38,688 bases of DNA, taken from positions 1-38,688 of IMG/VR virus record IMGVR_UViG_3300044939_000040; one strand, 5' to 3'. The DNA is from a virus. The notes below the pieces were generated by a model. It was not told the DNA's origin and ran no database searches. It saw only the letters and a program-made list of their open reading frames with translations. Below are positions 1 through 38,688 of the stretch, in pieces (position 1 is the first letter of the stretch; each line of letters starts with the position of its first letter). A program made the position numbers and the translations under genes.

Positions 1-270
1 CCAGCAACCCTGCCGGCAGTCAGCGGCGCCAACCTGACCAACCTGAACGCCTCCAATCTCGCGAGCGGCACGGTACCTGATGCGCGGTTCCCGGCCACCC
101 TTCCGGCGATCAGCGGCGCCAACCTGACCAACCTGAACGCCTCCAATCTCGCGAGCGGTACGGTGCCGGATGCGCGATTCCCGGCAACCCTCCCAGCAGT
201 CAGCGGCGCCAACCTGACCAATCTGAACGCGAGCAATCTCGCGAGCGGTACAGTGCCAAGCGCACGCGTC
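1..270 (+). repeat. 90-nt tandem repeats of fibre shaft (start of window)
   Basis: Codon-phased units begin at 22, 112 and 202, with a partial unit before 22 and a decaying unit after 202. Each encodes 30 residues with the core S-G-A-N-L-T-N-L-N-A-S-N-L. The unit at 112-201 is nearly identical to that at 22-111, differing at scattered, mostly third positions. The same array occurs at 38508-38688. Confidence 0.9.
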
Positions 271-4386: not shown

Positions 4387-5725
4387 GGTAGAGCTCCTCT
4401 TGGGTAATGTCTTTGCGACGAATCGCTTCGAGCACGATCTCGTCGATCGAGCCCTTCACGATGAGATGGTGGATCACGACACCACGCTTCTGGCCTTGAC
4501 GCCAGATGCGTGCGTTGGTCTGGATGTACTCGTCGAGCGACCATGTGATGCTGTACCACACGATCGCGCGCCCGCCCGACTGAAGGTTCAGGCCGGTGCT
4601 GACGCTTCCCGGGTGGACGACGAGAACAGGCAGCCGGCCCTCGTTCCATTCGTCGATGAGTCGGTTGACCTGTTTCGCGCCGAGACCGCCGGTGATGAAC
4701 TCCGTGCGCACGCCGACGTGCTTGGCGAGATACGGCAAGATGCGGTCGATCTCGTGCCGGTACTGGACGGCGACCATCAGGGGCTCCCCCTGATGCTCGT
4801 CGACCAGATCGGCTAGAGCGCGCAGCTTGTCGTCGTGCAAATTTTGCACGGACTCGTCGGGAAGGTAGATCGCCCCGCCAGTCGCCTGCCGCATGCTGTT
4901 CAGCTTCGCTGCTACCTGCTGACCGGGTAGCCCGTCGAACGTTCCGCGCCGGATGCGCTCGCAGGCTTGCAGGGCATCCGGCGACTCGATCAGGATGTCG
5001 TTGTCGCGACGCTCCGGCATCTCGATGTAGTCGGCCGCGTCGAGGCGGTAGCAGATGTCGGAGATGGCGGAGTAAATCTCGGCGTCAGCCCCCTCACGCA
5101 GCGCCCACAGGCTGTAGCCGCCCCACTGTGGCATCTCGATGCAGTACCGCTCGCGGAATGCTGTCAGCGTGCGCCCGAGTCGCCGCCCGTTGTCGAGGAT
5201 GCGGACCTGCCCGAATAGGTCCATCAGGCTCTCGGCTGCCGGGGTGCCGCTCAAGCAGTAACGTCGGCGGAACTGCGGCAGCATGGCCTTTAAAGCCTTC
5301 GATCGTTGGGCCTGCGTGTTCTTGAACTTCTGGGACTCGTCGACCACGAGGACGTCCCACGCAGGCGTCTGCGAGAGGCTCAGATCGGCCAGCCAAGCGA
5401 CGTTTTCCGGGTTGAGTAGGTAGACGTCAGCCGGCTCCTGAAGAGCCTTCAGGCGCCTTTCTGGGCCTCCTGCGACGAGGCTGAACGTCAGCGGGAAGCC
5501 CCACTTTTCCGCCTCCTGCCGCCACGTCTTTTCCATCGGCCGCTTCGGAGCGATGACGAGAGCCGCGCGCATGGCTCCGGCTCGTTTCAGCTCCGTCAGC
5601 CCGGCGAGGACGATCCCAGTCTTGCCAGCTCCGGGGGACAGAAACAGCCCGTACGAAGGGCTGCTGAGCATGCGCTCCAGCGCGCGGCGCTGAAACGGGT
5701 GCGGAGAGTAGGTGATCGAGGACAT
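4358..5725 (-). CDS. SNF2/DEAD-type superfamily 2 helicase
   Basis: The start is ATG at 5725 (MSSITYSPHPFQ). The frame stays open upstream, but that part overlaps VRR-NUC out of frame and is low-complexity. 455 aa: Q-motif-like start, Walker A PGAGKT (31-36), motif II D-E-S-Q (129-132), motif III S-G-T-P (159-162), and the SNF2 motif VI region (N-A-R-I-W-R-Q-G-Q-K) near the C-terminus. It should translocate on DNA using ATP. Phage SNF2 helicases beside VRR-NUC, DUF2815 and DUF2800 genes form a familiar replication/recombination block, matching this operon. Confidence 0.9.
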   Translation of the reverse strand: MSSITYSPHPFQRRALERMLSSPSYGLFLSPGAGKTGIVLAGLTELKRAGAMRAALVIAPKRPMEKTWRQEAEKWGFPLTFSLVAGGPERRLKALQEPADVYLLNPENVAWLADLSLSQTPAWDVLVVDESQKFKNTQAQRSKALKAMLPQFRRRYCLSGTPAAESLMDLFGQVRILDNGRRLGRTLTAFRERYCIEMPQWGGYSLWALREGADAEIYSAISDICYRLDAADYIEMPERRDNDILIESPDALQACERIRRGTFDGLPGQQVAAKLNSMRQATGGAIYLPDESVQNLHDDKLRALADLVDEHQGEPLMVAVQYRHEIDRILPYLAKHVGVRTEFITGGLGAKQVNRLIDEWNEGRLPVLVVHPGSVSTGLNLQSGGRAIVWYSITWSLDEYIQTNARIWRQGQKRGVVIHHLIVKGSIDEIVLEAIRRKDITQEELYRVLEASIEA

Positions 5726-8244: not shown

Positions 8245-10239
8245 TCAGTCTTTCCGGTAGGCGGGCGCCAGAAAACCCGCACTACGAATGGGGGCATTCC
8301 GGCACCAGTCCGGGGCCGTCATGCACTCCTGCAACTCGCGTAGGTCCGCCTCCTCGCGCCCTTCGCGAGCCAGCACGACGATCTCATCGTGGACGTGCAG
8401 GACGACGTCAAGCCCCCGGCGCTCCGCCTCACGCAACGCGCGGGCGAGCACGTCGCGGCTGATCGACTGCACGACGTTCTCGGTGAGCTTCCCGCCCCAC
8501 GTGTAGATGGACCCCCACTGCCCGGTGTGCTGATTCACCCCGTCGTACTGGATGACGTCCGACCAGTACCAGTTATCCGGGTCCTCTTTCCACGCCTTCA
8601 GCTTCTCGGCGGACGACTCGACGTCAGCGGGCGGGACGCGCATGCGACGCGTTTCAGTCAGGCGAGCGTTGATGTAGGTGATCTCGGTCCCTGCCGGTAG
8701 ACGGCAGACGACGTGGTGATCGCGCGGAGCGAAGACGAACTCGCGGTACCTGTACGGCTTGCGGTGGATGATGCACTGCTTCATCGCCGTTTCGAGCCCA
8801 TCCCACAGAGCGACGATCAGAGGGTGCGTGTCGCGATACGTGCGGATCGCGCGCTGCGCTTCTTCGGGCGTCATCTTGACGCCCATTCCCGCGGCGTACT
8901 CAACCAGCGTTTTGGCTCCGAGACCGTAGCCGCCCCCGAGCACCGGCGGCTTGGCGAAAGTGCGCTGCTCCTTCGTGACCTCCTCGTACTTCACGCCGAA
9001 CTGCGCGGCGGCGAAGTCCTTGTACGGGTCGAGCCCTTCGGCGAACCGTTTCATCTTCTCCTCGTCGCCAGCAGCCCAGTAGAGCATCACGACCTCGATC
9101 GAAGCGAAGTCGGCGATCGCGAGCTTGCGACCTCCCGGGTCGCGCACAATCGAGCGCACGAGATCGGCGACCAGCTTGAACGGCGCAGGATAGAGCGAAC
9201 GGAGAAGGTCGACGTCTTCGTGCTGTAGGACGTCCCACGCAGTCTGAATCTCTTCGTCGCTGCCGAGACCGCGGCGTAAGTTCTGCGGCTGTAAGCCGCG
9301 CCCGCTCCACCGATGAGTGCGCCCCGCCCCGCTGTACTGGAGCATGTGGCGCATCACGCCGTCGACGGTCTGGCGGACCGCTACGTCGTACTTCTTCGGC
9401 GCCGACATCCCTGCACCGACGCGCAGCAGAAGCACGCGCCGTACGTCCTGCGGCAGCTCCTTGCTCAACAGACCGTTGATCGTGGCAGCGTCGAGCGAGT
9501 CAAGCTGAACGCCCAGTTTACGTTGCACCCACTGCTTGATCTGGATCGGGCTGTTGGGGTTCTCGATCCCCGTGATCTGCTGAATCTCACGCAACGCATC
9601 AGCGCACAGACGATCGAAGACGCGGCTCGCGACACGAGCGCGCTCGACATCGACAGGCACTCCGCGTCGATTGATCCTCTGCGACATCTGATAGATGCGC
9701 AGCTCCTCCTCCGGCCACCCGAGACCGATCTCGTCGAGATACGTCGCGACGGCAGCCTCGATGACGATGTCGTTCTGGTTGTACTCGACGAAACGCTGCC
9801 AGTCGCCCGGTTGCTCCTTCGGGCTGACTGGCTTCGGCGGCATGCAGAAGATGCGGATCAAGCGTGACGACTCGCTCGTCTTCCCTTCGATCCCGAGAGC
9901 ATGGCATGCCTCGTCGAGCGACGCGGGCAGCGAGCGGTACTGCGCGTGGCCCATCGTGCAGGACCACTTCTCGTCGGGCAGCTTCAGACCGAGGACGTGC
10001 TCCGTGAGCTCCTGCTCGAAACCGGCGTTCCAAGCGTGGATGATCTTCGCTTCGAGTAGGTCGGAGCGCAACTCGTCGAGCGTGTTCGACTTCGGGTTGC
10101 GCTCATCATATTGCTTCAGATTGCCGCGCTCGTCTGTCCAAGCGGCGAGGATGATGCGGGTGCTGTGGTGGCGAGCGTAGTGCGCAAGGCCGACCGTCTT
10201 GAGATCGGACTCACTGTAGGTCTCGTAGTCGAGATGCAC
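8245..10239 (-). CDS. Family A DNA polymerase with 3'-5' exonuclease
   Basis: 664 aa from GTG at 10239 (GGAAGGA upstream). Exonuclease motifs: D-Y-E (residues 4-6), N-A-G-F-E-Q near 95, and Y-N-Q-N-D near 155. Polymerase motifs: A is D377-F-A-S-I-E, B is R-T-F-A-K-x6-G-Y-G with Leu434 at the place of E. coli Phe762 / T7 Tyr526, C is H-V-H-D618-E. It is the replicative polymerase, with proofreading. The compact DnaQ-like exonuclease plus PolA layout resembles polymerases of several podo- and siphoviruses, including those of Z-DNA phages, but I cannot rank relatives by eye. Confidence 0.93.
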   Translation of the reverse strand: MHLDYETYSESDLKTVGLAHYARHHSTRIILAAWTDERGNLKQYDERNPKSNTLDELRSDLLEAKIIHAWNAGFEQELTEHVLGLKLPDEKWSCTMGHAQYRSLPASLDEACHALGIEGKTSESSRLIRIFCMPPKPVSPKEQPGDWQRFVEYNQNDIVIEAAVATYLDEIGLGWPEEELRIYQMSQRINRRGVPVDVERARVASRVFDRLCADALREIQQITGIENPNSPIQIKQWVQRKLGVQLDSLDAATINGLLSKELPQDVRRVLLLRVGAGMSAPKKYDVAVRQTVDGVMRHMLQYSGAGRTHRWSGRGLQPQNLRRGLGSDEEIQTAWDVLQHEDVDLLRSLYPAPFKLVADLVRSIVRDPGGRKLAIADFASIEVVMLYWAAGDEEKMKRFAEGLDPYKDFAAAQFGVKYEEVTKEQRTFAKPPVLGGGYGLGAKTLVEYAAGMGVKMTPEEAQRAIRTYRDTHPLIVALWDGLETAMKQCIIHRKPYRYREFVFAPRDHHVVCRLPAGTEITYINARLTETRRMRVPPADVESSAEKLKAWKEDPDNWYWSDVIQYDGVNQHTGQWGSIYTWGGKLTENVVQSISRDVLARALREAERRGLDVVLHVHDEIVVLAREGREEADLRELQECMTAPDWCRNAPIRSAGFLAPAYRKD

Positions 10240-10378: not shown

Positions 10379-10881
10379 AGCTCGACCTCGTGCGGCATCT
10401 TCGCCCCCTTGCGCAGGTTGTACTCCGCGAATACAACGTTCAGGTTGGACCAGTGATGCAGTCCCCCACGTACGAGAGGGATTACGTGGTCGACGTGGAC
10501 ATCGAGACCAGCCTTACGGTAGGCTCGCGCGATAGCATAGATGGACTTCACGATAGGGCAGCTCTCGTCTATTGTCTGGCCAAGCATACGGGCCCGGCGG
10601 ATCGCTGCGTAGTTTGAAACTGCCTCCTTGTTGGCCTCGCGCCAAGCCTTAGCACGGGCGAGCGCCCGCTCCTTGTTGGCCTCGTACCAAGCCTTAGTAC
10701 GGGCACAGGCACGGGCGCGCTCCCGCTCCTTGTTGGCCTCGCGCCAAACCTTTTCACAGGCGCGCGCCCTTTCCTTGTTAGCTTCGCGCCAAGCCTTGTT
10801 AATAGCGCGTTTCCGCTCCTTGTTGGCCTCGCGCCAAGCCTTATCGCGAGCTCGCTTCCGCTCTTTCTGCTCTTCGGTCAT
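10375..10881 (-). CDS. HNH endonuclease with tandem-repeat helical arm
   Basis: 168 aa. The C-terminal 60 residues form an HNH site: H129-V-D131-H132-V-I-P-L, G-G, then N146-L and N155-x2-K. The N-terminal half (6-84) is five copies of a basic 15-residue unit, K-E-R-K-R-A-R-D-K-A-W-R-E-A-N; the fourth is 19 residues. The arm should be one long, highly charged helix with a Trp (or Tyr nearby) every turn set, suited to binding DNA or RNA. Similar lysine/arginine repeats precede some phage HNH nucleases. It may be a free-standing homing nuclease or act in recombination or packaging. It overlaps the MazZ-like gene by 4 nt. Confidence 0.8.
   Translation of the reverse strand: MTEEQKERKRARDKAWREANKERKRAINKAWREANKERARACEKVWREANKERERARACARTKAWYEANKERALARAKAWREANKEAVSNYAAIRRARMLGQTIDESCPIVKSIYAIARAYRKAGLDVHVDHVIPLVRGGLHHWSNLNVVFAEYNLRKGAKMPHEVEL
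10630..10866 (-). repeat. 45-nt repeats coding the HNH arm
   Basis: Five in-frame units of 45 nt (one of 57 nt) encode the basic helical arm of the HNH protein. The codons for W-R-E-A-N-K-E-R are almost unchanged between units, so they arose by recent duplication and could change copy number by slippage. Confidence 0.85.
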
Positions 10882-13814: not shown

Positions 13815-14465
13815 GTGAACCACACCCCGTCCATCCTGACGCGGAGCGGCATCCTATTCAATCTTGCCGATCCGAAGCCTGAACTCGTCCGACTCGAAGA
13901 TATCACTTATGCGCTGTCCCACATCAACCGGTTCACCGGCCACACGCGTACGCGCTGGACCGTAGCGCAACACTCGCTGCTCGCGTATCACCTCGCGTCG
14001 AGATGGAAGTCGGACTCCCTCCCGTACGTCAGCGATCTGCGCATCCTCTGCCTGATGCACGACGCAGCGGAGGCTTACGTCGGCGACATATCTTCGCCGC
14101 TGAAGTCGCTCGTGCCGCAGTTCCGCGAGATCGAGAAGCGCATCCAACGCACGATCTCTGACAAGTTCGAACTCCCGCAGCCGGACGACCATCTCACCGA
14201 TCTGGTCAAGACGATCGACTCGATCTGCTACGTCGCGGAGCGCAAAGTTCTGATGCCCGAGTTCGACTTCGCGAAGCACGGCCACAGCGATCACGAACTC
14301 TACCAGCATATCGAGTTCTGGTGCCCTCTCTCCATCGAGACAGCGTGCGCGTTTATCAAGTCGAACTTCTTCGTCAACGCGAGCGGGAAAGGCAAGTACG
14401 CGTCATCCGGTCAGCTCGCGAAGGAGTTCGAGCGCGCGATCCTGAATGAGCTGGAGGAGCGATGA
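13815..14465 (+). CDS. HD-domain phosphohydrolase (YfbR/DatZ-like)
   Basis: GTG start at 13815, GAGGA at 13806-13810. 216 aa. Metal site: H53 (V-A-Q-H), H82-D83 and D135 (T-I-D). The opening T-R-S-G-I-L-F-N-L, the E-D-I-x-Y-A-L-S pattern, the F-T-G-H segment and A-E-A-Y-x-G-D-I-S-S-P-L-K are typical of phage HD proteins related to 5'-deoxynucleotidase YfbR. DatZ, the dATP triphosphohydrolase of Z-DNA phages, is a specialised member. It should dephosphorylate deoxynucleotides; substrate cannot be read by eye. It overlaps the primase gene by ATGA. Confidence 0.8.
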   Translation: MNHTPSILTRSGILFNLADPKPELVRLEDITYALSHINRFTGHTRTRWTVAQHSLLAYHLASRWKSDSLPYVSDLRILCLMHDAAEAYVGDISSPLKSLVPQFREIEKRIQRTISDKFELPQPDDHLTDLVKTIDSICYVAERKVLMPEFDFAKHGHSDHELYQHIEFWCPLSIETACAFIKSNFFVNASGKGKYASSGQLAKEFERAILNELEER

Positions 14466-16387
14466 TCTACGGGACGATAGCGAACGATCTACTCGCGCGC
14501 GGATACGAGCCGATCCCGTGCGCAGGCAAGCGCCCGATCTACAGCGATTGGCAAAACAAGGTCGGCGTCAATCCGGCGAAGCACTACGAGGCGAACGTCG
14601 GTCTTCTCACACGATCGACACCGGCACTCGATGTCGACTTCGAAGACTCGTCTGTGCTCGACATCGTCGAAAGCGTCATCGGCAACAACCCGAAACGCAT
14701 AGGGCGCAAAGGCGCGCTTTACCTGTTCCGCACCGACGCCCCGTTCCGCAAAATGAGGCGCGAGTACGTACGCGACAGCGAACACGGTGCGATCGAATGG
14801 CTCGCAGACGGGCAGCAGTTCATCGCGTACGGTACTCACCCAGACACCGGCAGGCCGTACATGTGGGTCGGCGGTCGAGGGCCGCGAGATGTCGAGTCGC
14901 ATGATCTAACGACGGTCGACGAGACGGCGGCGTTGCGAATCCTCGATGAGATCGAGGAGCGTCTGCTTGCGTCTGGTTGGCAGCGCAAGGCCGGTGCGAC
15001 TGGCTCCACCGGATCGATGATCCGCCGCAGTTCCCCGGTCGAGTTCGACATCCCGGAGTCCGACTACACGCAGCGCCAGATCGAGTGCCTGAAAGCTCTC
15101 CCGCATCTCGATGCGGAGGATTACGGATCGTGGATCGCTGTCGGGCACGCGTTGCGATCCGAGGGTTTCGAGTTCGACGTCTACGATGCTTGGAGCCGCA
15201 CGGCGCCGAACTACGACCGCGATGCGTGCATCAAGCGCTGGGAGAGCTTCAACCCTCGAAGCGCTGGAGCGTATTCGTTGCTTCGAGCAGCTGGAATGAG
15301 CACGGCGAAGCTCGACTTCGAGCCGGTCGCGGGCGCGCAGGAGGAGCCCGCAGCCCCCGCAAAAAAGTCGCCCGATATCCAGACGATCGCGAGCATCGCG
15401 GAGCGCAAGCCACCCGACTGGCTGGTCAAGGGTCTCATCCCGAAGGTGTCTCTCGTCGGGTTGATCGCCTCCCCGAACGCGGGGAAGAGCTTCCTGCTTC
15501 TCGACCTGTGCGCGGCCGTTGAGCGCGCAGGGTCGTCGGACGTTACGTGGTTCGGGCGTCGCGTCAAGGCGGACGAGCGCTCGATCTGCGTCGTGTTCAG
15601 CTACGAGGGCTCGATGGTCGTACGTGCGCGTGCTCTGCGCAAGCGGTTCGACGGCGTCGGCAGTCGGATCGTGATTGAGAGTGGTTGGCCGAACCTGCGC
15701 GACCCGGAAAGCGTTTCTCGCGTCATGGAGCGCATCGGGGAGATCGAGCAGTCGCTCGGCGGGCGCGTGAGGCTGATCGCGTTCGATACGCTGAATCTCG
15801 CGCTGGCGGGCGGGAACGAGAACAGCAGCGAGGACATGGGCGCCGCGGTGGGCGCTATAAAGCGGCTTCGAGATGCGTATCGCTGCTCGGTGGTGGTCGT
15901 CCATCATCTGGGGAAGGATGAGACGAAGGGTGCTCGTGGGCATACGTCGCTTCTGGGAGCCCTCGACACGGAGATTACGATCGTGGGTGATCGGGTAGCC
16001 CCGACCCGGACGATCGAGCTCACGAAGTGCCGGGATGGGGACGGGATCGGCGGATTCGGCTGGTTCCGGTTGTCGGTGGTCGGGCTCGGGTTCGATGAGG
16101 ACGGCGACGAGATGACTTCGTGCGTGGTCGAGCCGACGGTAGAGGAGGAGGCGGCAGCCGGGCGGATGAAAGAGGCCGAGGAACGCGTCAGGAAGGCGCT
16201 GGAGCCGTTCCCGGGCGGGCTCAGCAAGAATGCCCTATTTGCGGCCGTCGGCGGCAACAGGAACCGCTTTTTCGCCGATCTGGAAGCCCTACGTGAGGCC
16301 GGCAAGATAGAATTTAAAGCGGGTGAACGTGGGGCGCTTCTTGTGGTGTGGGGTTGCGGTTCGACCAGTACCACCAGTACCAACTAG
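14462..16387 (+). CDS. Primase-polymerase fused to RecA-like (RepA-type) helicase
   Basis: 641 aa in three parts. Residues 1-150: archaeo-eukaryotic Prim-Pol, with D57-V-D59, G-R-K-G-A-L-Y-L-F and Y-G-T-H125-P-D-T-G. About 195-265: PriCT-2 linker (I-x-C-L-K-A-L-P, W-x-x-V-G-H-A-L). About 315-540: AAA_25/RepA-like ATPase with Walker A S-P-N-A-G341-K342-S343, Walker B I-A-F-D-T and the H-H-L-G-K motif, then R-G-H-T-S-L-L. A winged-helix-like end follows. It should start and unwind the replication fork. The last codons (S-T-S-T-T-S-T-N) are read from the GTAC repeat array, so the array extends into the gene. Confidence 0.88.
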   Translation: MIYGTIANDLLARGYEPIPCAGKRPIYSDWQNKVGVNPAKHYEANVGLLTRSTPALDVDFEDSSVLDIVESVIGNNPKRIGRKGALYLFRTDAPFRKMRREYVRDSEHGAIEWLADGQQFIAYGTHPDTGRPYMWVGGRGPRDVESHDLTTVDETAALRILDEIEERLLASGWQRKAGATGSTGSMIRRSSPVEFDIPESDYTQRQIECLKALPHLDAEDYGSWIAVGHALRSEGFEFDVYDAWSRTAPNYDRDACIKRWESFNPRSAGAYSLLRAAGMSTAKLDFEPVAGAQEEPAAPAKKSPDIQTIASIAERKPPDWLVKGLIPKVSLVGLIASPNAGKSFLLLDLCAAVERAGSSDVTWFGRRVKADERSICVVFSYEGSMVVRARALRKRFDGVGSRIVIESGWPNLRDPESVSRVMERIGEIEQSLGGRVRLIAFDTLNLALAGGNENSSEDMGAAVGAIKRLRDAYRCSVVVVHHLGKDETKGARGHTSLLGALDTEITIVGDRVAPTRTIELTKCRDGDGIGGFGWFRLSVVGLGFDEDGDEMTSCVVEPTVEEEAAAGRMKEAEERVRKALEPFPGGLSKNALFAAVGGNRNRFFADLEALREAGKIEFKAGERGALLVVWGCGSTSTTSTN

Positions 16388-16405
16388 TACCGGTACTGGT
16401 GGTAC
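16368..16405. repeat. 14-bp perfect hairpin across primase stop codon
   Basis: Arms 16368-16381 and 16392-16405 are exact inverted repeats (GTACCACCAGTACC) with a 10-nt loop that itself holds half of the palindrome AGTACCGGTACT (16386-16397). The TAG stop (16385-16387) is in the loop. Confidence 0.85.
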
Positions 16406-16594
16406 AAGTACCAGTACCAGTACCGCCCCTTAAGGGCGGTACTGGTACTGGTCGGTAGAACTGGTCGAGGTACCGGTTGAGGTACTGGTCGGGTCGAAGC
16501 CCTGCCGAAGCCGCCGATCAAACCTTGCGCCCGGGTGCAAGTGTTGCGAAAACGCAACAGCCGTTCGTGGCCGACGAACGGTAGGCCCGGGGGC
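16388..16594. other. Non-coding hairpin array; candidate replication origin/regulatory region
   Basis: No gene. It contains the two long hairpins, direct repeats GAGGTACYGGT at 16467-16477 and 16479-16489, then three small inverted repeats: CTTGC/GCAAG (16524-16541), GTTGCG-AAAA-CGCAAC (16543-16558) and CCGTTCGT/ACGAACGG (16561-16581). It ends at the promoter at 16595. The primase/helicase gene just upstream makes an origin role attractive but unproven. Confidence 0.5.
16410..16452. repeat. 19-bp perfect hairpin, GTAC-rich
   Basis: Arms 16410-16428 and 16434-16452 are exact inverted repeats around loop CTTAA. No U-run follows, so a simple intrinsic terminator is unlikely. Together with 16368-16405 and the repeats to 16489, GTAC occurs about a dozen times in about 120 nt. 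An origin, protein-binding array or mRNA 3'-end block is possible. Confidence 0.85.
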
Positions 16595-16623
16595 TTGACA
16601 GCGGCACGGATACGCTTTAAAGT
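16595..16623 (+). promoter_or_regulatory. Near-consensus sigma70 promoter
   Basis: -35 TTGACA (16595-16600, perfect), 17-nt spacer, -10 TAAAGT (16618-16623, four of six). Start near 16630, giving a ~46-nt leader to ATG 16676. This is the best promoter in the window. Confidence 0.75.
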
Positions 16624-16675
16624 ACGCTCAACGGTTGGGGATCGGCCTCAACCGGGACCTGAAAGGAGATGTGAG

Positions 16676-17020
16676 ATGTTCCTTCTGAACTTCGGGTTGA
16701 ACCGGAACGATGGAAAAGGTGAAGTCGACGCAATGCGACTGGTGCGCGATTTGCACTACTTCGGCATGTCCCCGGTACTGCTCGGTACGCCGAAGAGCGA
16801 TACCGAGCCGACTGCGGTCGTCTCGGTGAAGCATCGGCCGACCGGCACAATGGTCGACTACCTGTGCGACCGGTATGCGCAGGACTGCTTCGCGGTGTAC
16901 TGCCCGTCCACCGGTACCGGTGAGCTGGTAGGGCCGAAGGCTGCCGAATGGGGTGAATTCAACCCCGCCTACTTCATCGTGAACGGATACGGGAAGCGGC
17001 TCGCGGAGGTGTCAAGATGA
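16676..17020 (+). CDS. Small protein, 114 aa, unknown
   Basis: ATG at 16676 with AAAGGAG at 16662-16668, transcribed from the strong promoter at 16595. An open frame upstream lacks an RBS. The protein begins M-F-L-L-N-F-G-L-N-R-N-D-G, has two cysteines (C at about 61 and 70) and aromatic-rich segments, and no TM. It forms a two-gene unit with the next gene, closed by the terminator at 17234. A small gene with its own strong promoter in an early region could make an abundant host-takeover or regulatory protein, but I recognise no family. Confidence 0.6.
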   Translation: MFLLNFGLNRNDGKGEVDAMRLVRDLHYFGMSPVLLGTPKSDTEPTAVVSVKHRPTGTMVDYLCDRYAQDCFAVYCPSTGTGELVGPKAAEWGEFNPAYFIVNGYGKRLAEVSR

Positions 17021-26873: not shown

Positions 26874-28064
26874 ATGGAAGAACCCACCATCCGCGAGACC
26901 TTGGAGTCGGCCATCGAATCAGTCGACTCCGCCTCATCCACCACACCGGCGAGCCCGCCGCCACCGGCCGCGGAGCCCTCCGGTGCATCCACAGGCGGCG
27001 CCGGCGAGACGCCCGAACCGTCGCCTCCAGCCGGCGAGTCGAAGATCGACCGTCCGCGTAACCCGGACGGCACCTTCGCTCCCAAACAGGGAACGGACGT
27101 ACCCAAACCGGGACTGCCTCCGGCACCGCCGGCACCGAAGGCGCCGGGCGCCGCGAAGAAGCCCGCCGAAGGGGCCCCCGCGGAGCAGCCGCAGCAGAAG
27201 ACGTTGCGCCCGCCGCAGTCTCTCAAGCCCGCCGAACGCGAAGCGTTCATGTCGGCGAGCCCGGTCCTTCAGGAGGCGCTCATCCGGCGCGAGAAGGAGA
27301 TTCAGCAAGCGTTGCAGCAGACGGCCGGCGCCCGCCAGTTCACGCAGCGGATGACGGAGGTGTTGCAGCCGTACATCCCCCTGATTCAGGCGAACGGCGG
27401 CGACCCGTTCCAGTTCGTCGGGAATCTGTTGTACGCAAGCAACGCTCTGACGCACGGAAGCCCGAAATTTAAAGCGGAGGTGGTCGCGAGCCTCATCCAG
27501 CAGTTCGGGGTCGACATCGAGATGCTCGACAGCGTTCTGGCCGGGCTGCCGGTGCAGAGCCAGAAGCCCGCTGCCGACCAGCAAATCCTGCCTCAGGTAC
27601 AGCAGCTCATCCAGCAGCAGCTCGCGCCGGTGCAGCAGCTCTTGGGCCAGATTCAGCAGCAGCGCCAGCAGGCGTTTCAGGCCGCCTACCAGAAGGAGAC
27701 TCAGTCTTTAGAGCAGTTCGCTGCTGACCCGAAGCACGAGTTCTTCGAGGACGTCCGGGAGATCATGGCCGACCTGATCGAGGTGGCGGCCAGCCGCGGG
27801 TACGAGCTTTCCTACGAGGACGCCTACGCTCAGGCGTGCCAATTGCACCCAGACGTCCGGTCTGTTATCATGTCGCGAAATAGCAACGCTCAGCTCCAGA
27901 ACACCGCGCAGAGCTTGACGGCGGCCGCCCAACGTGCTAAGGCGGCCGCCGTCAGCGTGGCCGGAGGCCCTGCGTCTGGTGTTCCGGGAGGAGCACCCGC
28001 TGGCGGAGCAGCTCCGTCAATCCGGGCCAGCATCGAGCAGGCTATCGCGGCGCAGGCCGGTTGA
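26874..28064 (+). CDS. Scaffolding protein
   Basis: 396 aa, strong RBS AAAGGAG. Pro/Ala/Glu-rich disordered N-terminus (about 1-115), then a helical, Gln-rich core (Q-Q-L-I-Q-Q-Q-L-A-P-V-Q-Q-L) and an Ala-rich end. Long, acidic, helical and placed directly before the major capsid gene, it fits an assembly scaffold. No protease motif is seen, so it may leave the prohead intact as in P22-type phages. Identity rests on composition and position. Confidence 0.75.
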   Translation: MEEPTIRETLESAIESVDSASSTTPASPPPPAAEPSGASTGGAGETPEPSPPAGESKIDRPRNPDGTFAPKQGTDVPKPGLPPAPPAPKAPGAAKKPAEGAPAEQPQQKTLRPPQSLKPAEREAFMSASPVLQEALIRREKEIQQALQQTAGARQFTQRMTEVLQPYIPLIQANGGDPFQFVGNLLYASNALTHGSPKFKAEVVASLIQQFGVDIEMLDSVLAGLPVQSQKPAADQQILPQVQQLIQQQLAPVQQLLGQIQQQRQQAFQAAYQKETQSLEQFAADPKHEFFEDVREIMADLIEVAASRGYELSYEDAYAQACQLHPDVRSVIMSRNSNAQLQNTAQSLTAAAQRAKAAAVSVAGGPASGVPGGAPAGGAAPSIRASIEQAIAAQAG

Positions 28065-38159: not shown

Positions 38160-38688
38160 ATGCCTCGGAACAACGCAGGAGTTTACACCCTCCCGTCTGG
38201 GAACCCGGTGTCCCCCAACACGCTGATTCAGACGTCGTGGGCGAACAACACCCTGAACGACGTCGCTGCGGAGATCACGAACTCGCTCGCGCGTAACGGC
38301 GCAGGCGGGATGACAGGACCTTTCCGCGCCACCGACGGCACGGTGGGCACCCCGTCCATCTCGTTCAACTCGGAGACGGCCAGCGGGCTTTACCGCCCGG
38401 CTGCTGGACAAATTTCGGTCTCGATTCAGGGGGTTCTGCGAGCGACGTTCTCGGCGACGGGTCTGTCAGTTACTGGTGACGTATCGACCACAGGGGCGTT
38501 CTCGGGTAGCGGCGCCAACCTGACGAGCCTGAACGCCTCCAATCTCGCGAGCGGAACGGTTCCGGACGCACGGTTCCCAGCAACCCTGCCGGCAGTCAGC
38601 GGCGCCAACCTGACCAACCTGAACGCCTCCAATCTCGCGAGCGGTACGGTGCCGGATGCGCGATTCCCGGCAACCCTCCCAGCAGTCA
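38160..38688 (+). CDS. Tail fibre, N-terminal part (continues at base 1)
   Basis: ATG at 38160 with GGAGTAGGAG upstream. The N-terminus M-P-R-N-N-A-G-V-Y-T-L-P-S-G-N-P-V is typical of podovirus fibres: a short attachment domain with N-T-L-I-Q-T-S-W-A-N-N-T-L-N-D. A shaft follows with two full 90-nt units from 38508. The frame is open at 38688 and, by base order, continues into codon position 202 (or 112) at the start of the window. Confidence 0.85.
   Translation, partial: MPRNNAGVYTLPSGNPVSPNTLIQTSWANNTLNDVAAEITNSLARNGAGGMTGPFRATDGTVGTPSISFNSETASGLYRPAAGQISVSIQGVLRATFSATGLSVTGDVSTTGAFSGSGANLTSLNASNLASGTVPDARFPATLPAVSGANLTNLNASNLASGTVPDARFPATLPAV
38508..38688 (+). repeat. 90-nt tandem repeats of fibre shaft (end of window)
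   Basis: Units begin at 38508 and 38598, exactly 90 nt apart, and the array is cut at 38688. Bases 38577-38644 equal 1-68, and 38645-38688 equal 159-202; the start copy has 90 nt more. Confidence 0.9.

Follow-up and report, generated by a model that had tools for sequence, protein, structure and literature searches.

The stop codon of the primase-helicase gene in IMG/VR virus record IMGVR_UViG_3300044939_000040 (positions 1 to 38,688, the whole 38,688-nucleotide stretch analysed here and called the window) lies inside an array of iterons. As judged from sequence comparison, this array is probably a cis-acting replication site recognized by the phage's own primase-helicase through its C-terminal winged helix, and the site is most likely the phage's origin itself. 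A compact block of near-identical short repeats is characteristic of iteron-type origins, and 11 copies occur here within 126 bp (Table 1). A central hairpin, whose palindromic apex contains TA, is flanked by iterons that are direct at the stop and inverted further on. A first-pass annotation had described the array as running into the primase stop codon (16385-16387), which is correct, but its onset at 16364 lies 24 bp ahead of the gene end and thus already within the last eight codons (STSTTSTN), which are spelled by iterons.

Table 1. Features of the window discussed in the text (position 1 is its first nucleotide).
Feature	Position	Strand	Details
DNA polymerase of the phage	8245-10239	-	
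Prim-Pol / PriCT_2 / RepA-type (AAA_25) primase-helicase gene, proposed initiator	14462..16387	+	641 aa; Pfam PF09250, PF08707, PF13481
C-terminal winged-helix domain, proposed iteron reader	16166..16351	+	AlphaFold2 model and Foldseek
Recognition helix and preceding residue	16256..16300	+	Asn in window, Tyr in L002/L003; relatives' alignment, model
Iteron array	16364-16489	.	126 bp; 11 9-mer copies, at most one mismatch
Iterons ACCAGTACC (six)	16364, 16373, 16383, 16404, 16410, 16416		one mismatch at 16383 and 16404
Iterons GGTACTGGT (five)	16392, 16438, 16444, 16469, 16481		one mismatch at 16469
First hairpin	16368-16381/16392-16405	.	14 bp perfect, 10-nt loop, stop codon inside span
Central hairpin	16410-16428/16434-16452	.	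19 bp perfect, 5-nt loop CTTAA
Apex palindrome CCCTTAAGGG, conserved	16427..16436	.	near-stop 10-mer counts
Conserved block past array	16495..16625	+	well conserved in L001, L002, L003, L005
Two short hairpins in conserved block	16543-16558, 16562-16582		
Sigma70-like promoter	16595-16623	+	TTGACA-17-TAAAGT; within conserved block

The 14-bp and 19-bp exact inverted repeats recognized in the first pass are present at 16368-16405 and 16410-16452, together with a 12-nt palindrome (16386-16397), two direct copies of GAGGTACYGGT (16467-16477 and 16479-16489) and the roughly 12 GTAC tetramers that had been counted (12 in 16351-16505, a density of 77 per kb vs. 4.1 per kb for the window). The sequence GGTACYGGT matches the window 12 times against 0.19 expected, with nine of these matches inside the array. 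Among perfect hairpins with a loop of 3-12, the 19-bp hairpin is the longest in the whole window and tops all 216 control stretches, and the 14-bp hairpin is joint second, tied with one of 14 bp at 27916-27954. When folded as single-stranded DNA, the array is much more stable than its shuffles (z = -9.65; reached by 0/200), and the 300 bp that hold it contain 22 inverted 8-mer pairs vs. nine at the next best place in the window. Tandem repeats in two coding regions (1-300 and 10.6-10.9 kb) have a higher direct-repeat content, and it is therefore in its inverted character that the array is unique in the window. One 90-bp coding tandem repeat occupies both ends of the window (4-257 and 38508-38688), and the record could therefore represent a complete circular map that was opened within a repetitive gene. 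In addition, the early-gene region carries a 45-bp tandem repeat in about three copies (10710-10863), and the matching place is also dense in the related loci L003-L005.

Other sequence signals in the window were also considered. The cumulative GC skew has its minimum at 14.0-15.0 kb, where gene direction flips as well and confounds the skew. No clear AT-rich stretch was found at the array, the AT-richest nearby 30-mer being 60% AT, with up to 80% in other clades. The sequence TTATCCACA, which we take to be DnaA-box-like, is not enriched in the window; at least three copies cluster ~1.3-1.4 kb past the helicase stop in L018, L029, L049, and L035 (4/75 clusters). Strong stems just 3' of a gene might also serve as a transcription terminator or an RNA processing hairpin, which is highly improbable here given that a terminator would have a GC stem followed by a T run. 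The stems had been noted to lack U-runs, and no terminator-like stem with a T run occurs there on the plus strand, which also speaks against the suggested RNA 3' end. Moreover, iterons in both orientations far exceed what a terminator needs, and the array has no Rfam family at gathering score.

A tblastn search of a phage collection with the primase returned only relatives below 60% identity, and metagenome contigs were therefore used for comparison. The close relatives are five IMG/VR loci (L001-L005) with primases 91-94% identical to that of the window, L003 being the same as L004 over this stretch. Conservation in close relatives, on which the first-pass annotation had staked its reading, is found for the array and the central hairpin in all five, with differing letters. 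The iterons read ACCAGTACC in the window and L001, AGTACTGGT in L002, AGTACTAGTACTGGT in L003 and L004, and both ATCGTACC and GATACGAT in L005, and a more distant locus (L006, 57% identical) carries ACTGGTTCCC repeats 155 bp past its stop. The central hairpin of L001-L005 keeps a GCCC/GGGC core and an apex with TA. The stem alignment that had been proposed yields weak covariation, with compensatory changes in 2/15 pairs among three distinct sequences, a level reached by 66/500 shuffles. Since the DNA after the array (~16495-16625) is well conserved, the array forms a fast-changing island beside conserved sequence. Within that conserved block, the first short hairpin (16543-16558, GTTGCG-AAAA-CGCAAC) keeps its AAAA loop in L002 and has a TTTT loop in L001, L003, and L005, in which the element is thus inverted, with one stem change in L003.

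The same architecture, spelled in other letters, recurs at the stops of related primase-helicase genes, and this comparison lends good support to the origin or protein-binding role that had been suggested. A first set comprised 87 loci plus the window, from which nine were dropped (no ORF end or <350 bp after it), leaving 79 loci in 27 clusters. In 16/27 clusters vs. 1.6 expected by position, the place where repeats are densest in the whole locus is no more than 300 bp from the helicase stop; the cluster of the window itself counts among the 11 misses, as coding repeats elsewhere in the window are denser. A second, out-of-sample set was assembled through three other helicases (233 loci, 11 lost; 47 clusters without any earlier locus), and repeat density peaks at the helicase stop in 27 of these clusters vs. 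3.95 expected, the top repeat window lying elsewhere in 20/47. Within the same loci, a repeat score of at least 20 is reached at 45/75 helicase stops vs. 1/123 other ORF ends. Named phages with an array at the stop include Rhizobium phage RHph_N65 and Roseobacter phages CRP-811 and CRP-831; the repeat scan found no array at the helicase stop in Caulobacter phage RW, Mycobacterium phage Nigel, or N15. A profile search from the primase alignment gave two further weak loci, which were left out. In L081 (~4850-5150), GGGACAAA repeats lie within the ORF and encode a GTNGTERD-like C-terminal extension, and iterons may thus be translated into protein in some relatives. No description of such arrays in RepA-helicase phages was found in the literature searched, judged by title and abstract.

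A hairpin near the stop is common but not universal. The best near-stop hairpin lies above every control stretch in 15/27 clusters vs. 0.5 expected, and a wider catalogue of apices contains many clusters with weak best hairpins near the stop. By eye, most of 22 loci share one layout: direct iterons run from the stop onward to a turned copy, after which an iteron and a short stem lead to an apex containing TA, and the order then reverses. As for the apex itself, 10-mers of the CCCTTTAGGG/CCCTTAAGGG/CCCTATAGGG type occur near the stop in 8/32 loci and nowhere in 354,185 bp elsewhere (a post hoc count), and in the new set, they occur near the stop in 6/47 clusters and nowhere in 345,650 bp elsewhere. 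A hand calculation for four 10-mers, 23.5 kb, and even base composition gives an apex expectation of ~0.09. A different single element resembling TAAGTGCTTG stands within the arrays of L006 (~8212), L103 (~7017), L002, and L005; the exact 10-mer is found near the stop in 2/32 loci and nowhere else in 354 kb, and no element like it was found in the window.

The gene that precedes the array encodes what would be expected beside an iteron origin, namely a replication initiator with a DNA-binding domain (Prim-Pol/PriCT_2/AAA_25 plus a predicted winged helix), and PHROGs matches of the 641-aa product are to DNA primase and replicative helicase-primase. A sequence search of solved structures gave no match for the protein. 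An AlphaFold2 model of the last 90 residues has helices at residues 11-30, 39-46, and 50-63, followed by a beta hairpin (66-70/76-80), with a pLDDT of 82-87 over residues 21-80. Among the Foldseek matches listed for this model, winged-helix DNA-binding proteins predominate (Fur, MarR, and ArsR families, Z-alpha), and because the best E is 4.8e-3 and none of the matches listed falls below 1e-3, the resemblance is one of fold and not of family. A model of the full-length protein was set aside (mean pLDDT 50).

The sequence of the iterons appears to follow this winged helix across phages, as expected if the array binds the protein, which had been among the initial suggestions. In the window family, the window, L001, and L005 have Asn immediately ahead of the recognition helix, where L002 and L003 have Tyr. 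With both strands counted, GTAC is preceded mostly by G in the Asn group (13/24, 15/30, 16/30) and mostly by A in the Tyr group (27/28, 20/26), so that Asn goes with GGTAC repeats and Tyr with AGTAC repeats in these few (five) sequences. Other residues, Lys/Arg in the wing, split in the same way, and L005 is an exception in that it retains Asn with partly different repeats (CGTACC, GATACGAT). For a broader sample, 309 loci were examined, of which 150 combined strong iterons with an ORF of sufficient length, giving 99 unique C-terminal domains and 1447 pairs with a core identity above 0.4. The partial correlation of iterons with the C-terminal domain given the helicase core is 0.364 (0/999 permutations), and that of iterons with the core given the C-terminal domain is 0.003. 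Similarly, nine pairs with a core identity of at least 0.8 and a C-terminal identity below 0.5 have a mean iteron similarity of 0.35, and 51 pairs alike in both core and C-terminal domain have a mean of 0.90. A natural swap is provided by L049 and L069, whose cores are identical to 0.92 and C-terminal domains to 0.21, and whose iterons are different. The iterons are likewise tracked by the DNA 350-1000 bp past the stop (partial 0.191 after allowing for the C-terminal domain), so part of the coupling reflects recombination of the 3' end as a whole; given that DNA, the partial correlation of the C-terminal domain with the iterons is 0.374. Across these loci, the iteron sequence is thus more closely tied to the predicted winged-helix domain than to other parts of the helicase. 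Both this coupling to a protein domain and the recurrence of the array at one position in unrelated clades leave almost no probability to a neutral, functionless expansion of short palindromic repeats, which might otherwise be read from the very fast change of the array between relatives 91-94% alike in primase and from the tandem growth of GGGTC in L001 (8050-8130), right past its array, which is short or absent in relatives.

Sites located 3' of an initiator gene are known from several systems, to which the window can be compared as far as the published descriptions go. In SaPI and SCCmec elements (Cch2), iterons lie directly downstream of the initiator helicase gene and are bound by the C-terminal domain of its product (PMC7581432), an arrangement like that of the window. 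These elements are described with a separate primase and few short iterons (AAGTG in SCCmec), whereas the window has a Prim-Pol fused to a RepA-type helicase, iterons that begin within the gene, and a conserved apex on its central hairpin. In the pRN1 family, the replication protein (ORF904) combines a Prim-Pol with a winged helix, and a stem-loop 3' of the gene varies in sequence while keeping its fold between conserved flanks, a feature extended by its authors to phage BIP-1 (PMC4234260). The window likewise has a Prim-Pol protein with a winged helix and, 3' of its gene, a stem-loop whose fold is kept while its sequence varies, with weak covariation in the stem. In that account, however, pRN1 has an SF3 helicase and a 21-nt stem with a 58-nt loop, and no iteron array is reported, in contrast to the AAA_25 helicase, short loop, and many iterons of the window. 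The primase-polymerase of phage NrS-1 also resembles the protein of the window in its Prim/Pol and helix-bundle module, which starts synthesis at specific template motifs, but its described recognition motifs, TTTGGTTA and GTG, are unlike the window (PMC8718748).

Phage P4 provides the serious rival to the origin reading. Directly 3' of its primase-helicase gene (alpha) lies crr, which like the window array is a block of iterons in both orientations (ten type 1 repeats are annotated in crr), and the annotated rep_origin of P4, which has the same repeats, is 4.5 kb away (X51522). By analogy, the array could be an accessory site for helicase loading or copy control, with synthesis starting elsewhere. 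The repeat scan, for which P4 served as positive control, picks up both P4 sites, crr and ori being its two best places. In the window, in contrast, there is one cluster and not two: no second iteron cluster was found, no 200-bp stretch outside the array having more than three iteron-like sites, and a crr-like role is on this ground unlikely.

The sequence past the array bears on whether it regulates transcription or packaging instead. Of the sigma70-like promoters between 13.7 and 18.3 kb, the best lies ~105 bp past the array, and single iteron-like sites occur outside the array at 16774 and 16910-16921, as would suit a set of operators through which a regulator, or the primase itself, controls this promoter or the primase transcript. 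We regard this as decidedly improbable, because the array stays at the helicase stop in other clades (RHph_N65, CRP-811, and others) despite different following genes, and because regulator arrays predict no link to the C-terminal domain of a helicase. There are also no sites at the primase promoter, and with no iteron-like site ahead of the primase gene, the primase autoregulation proposed earlier is not borne out. The promoter is nevertheless a good one, so some regulation by the array may occur. The first gene past it (16676-17020, plus strand) matches the S-adenosylmethionine lyase family weakly (E 3e-4, which does not reach the Pfam cut-off), as would fit an early anti-restriction gene. 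Terminase and portal genes follow, and with terL 1.7 kb further on, the array might be taken for a packaging site (cos/pac), for which the likelihood is very slim: a packaging site is expected to stay beside the terminase genes, and the array does not. For example, RHph_N65 has its array at ~34.9 kb and terL at 43.8 kb, and the CRP-811 array, at ~4.4 kb, is far from terS/terL (30.1-32.3 kb). Similarly, five terL relatives (L096-L100), which have no match to the window primase, contain no comparable array within 2.5 kb before terL (two hold <2.5 kb there); repeats before terL in L099 are coding repeats and were rejected as a comparable array.

If the array is a replication site read by the primase-helicase, initiation might proceed in a few steps. 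The winged helices of several protomers would bind the iterons, and the RepA-type helicase ring would assemble round the symmetric centre, which would then be opened or extruded as a hairpin. The helix-bundle/Prim-Pol part could prime on the exposed single strand, and the phage's DNA polymerase would extend the product. More tentatively, the arrays may represent a widespread, unnamed class of origins in Prim-Pol/RepA-helicase phages. In this class, the origin would sit on the stop codon of the initiator, and its iterons would change in sequence together with the winged helix. Opening or priming would take place at a fixed palindromic apex (CCCTTTAGGG, CCCTTAAGGG, CCCTATAGGG, and similar) enclosed by inverted iterons, possibly as an extruded hairpin. 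A site 3' of the initiator gene is already known, according to the accounts cited, from SaPI, SCCmec, pRN1, P4 crr, and, as proposed, BIP-1; what differs here is the RepA-type helicase, the entry of the iterons into the gene, the conserved apex, and the clade-wide drift of the letters. If this is true, the origins of many uncultured phages could be located from sequence, at the stop codon of the gene for the Prim-Pol/RepA helicase. Ready pairs for studying how a winged helix changes its target would be available among close relatives that differ in their iterons and among natural C-terminal swaps, and the conserved apex would be a defined point at which to examine where DNA is opened and primed by these enzymes.
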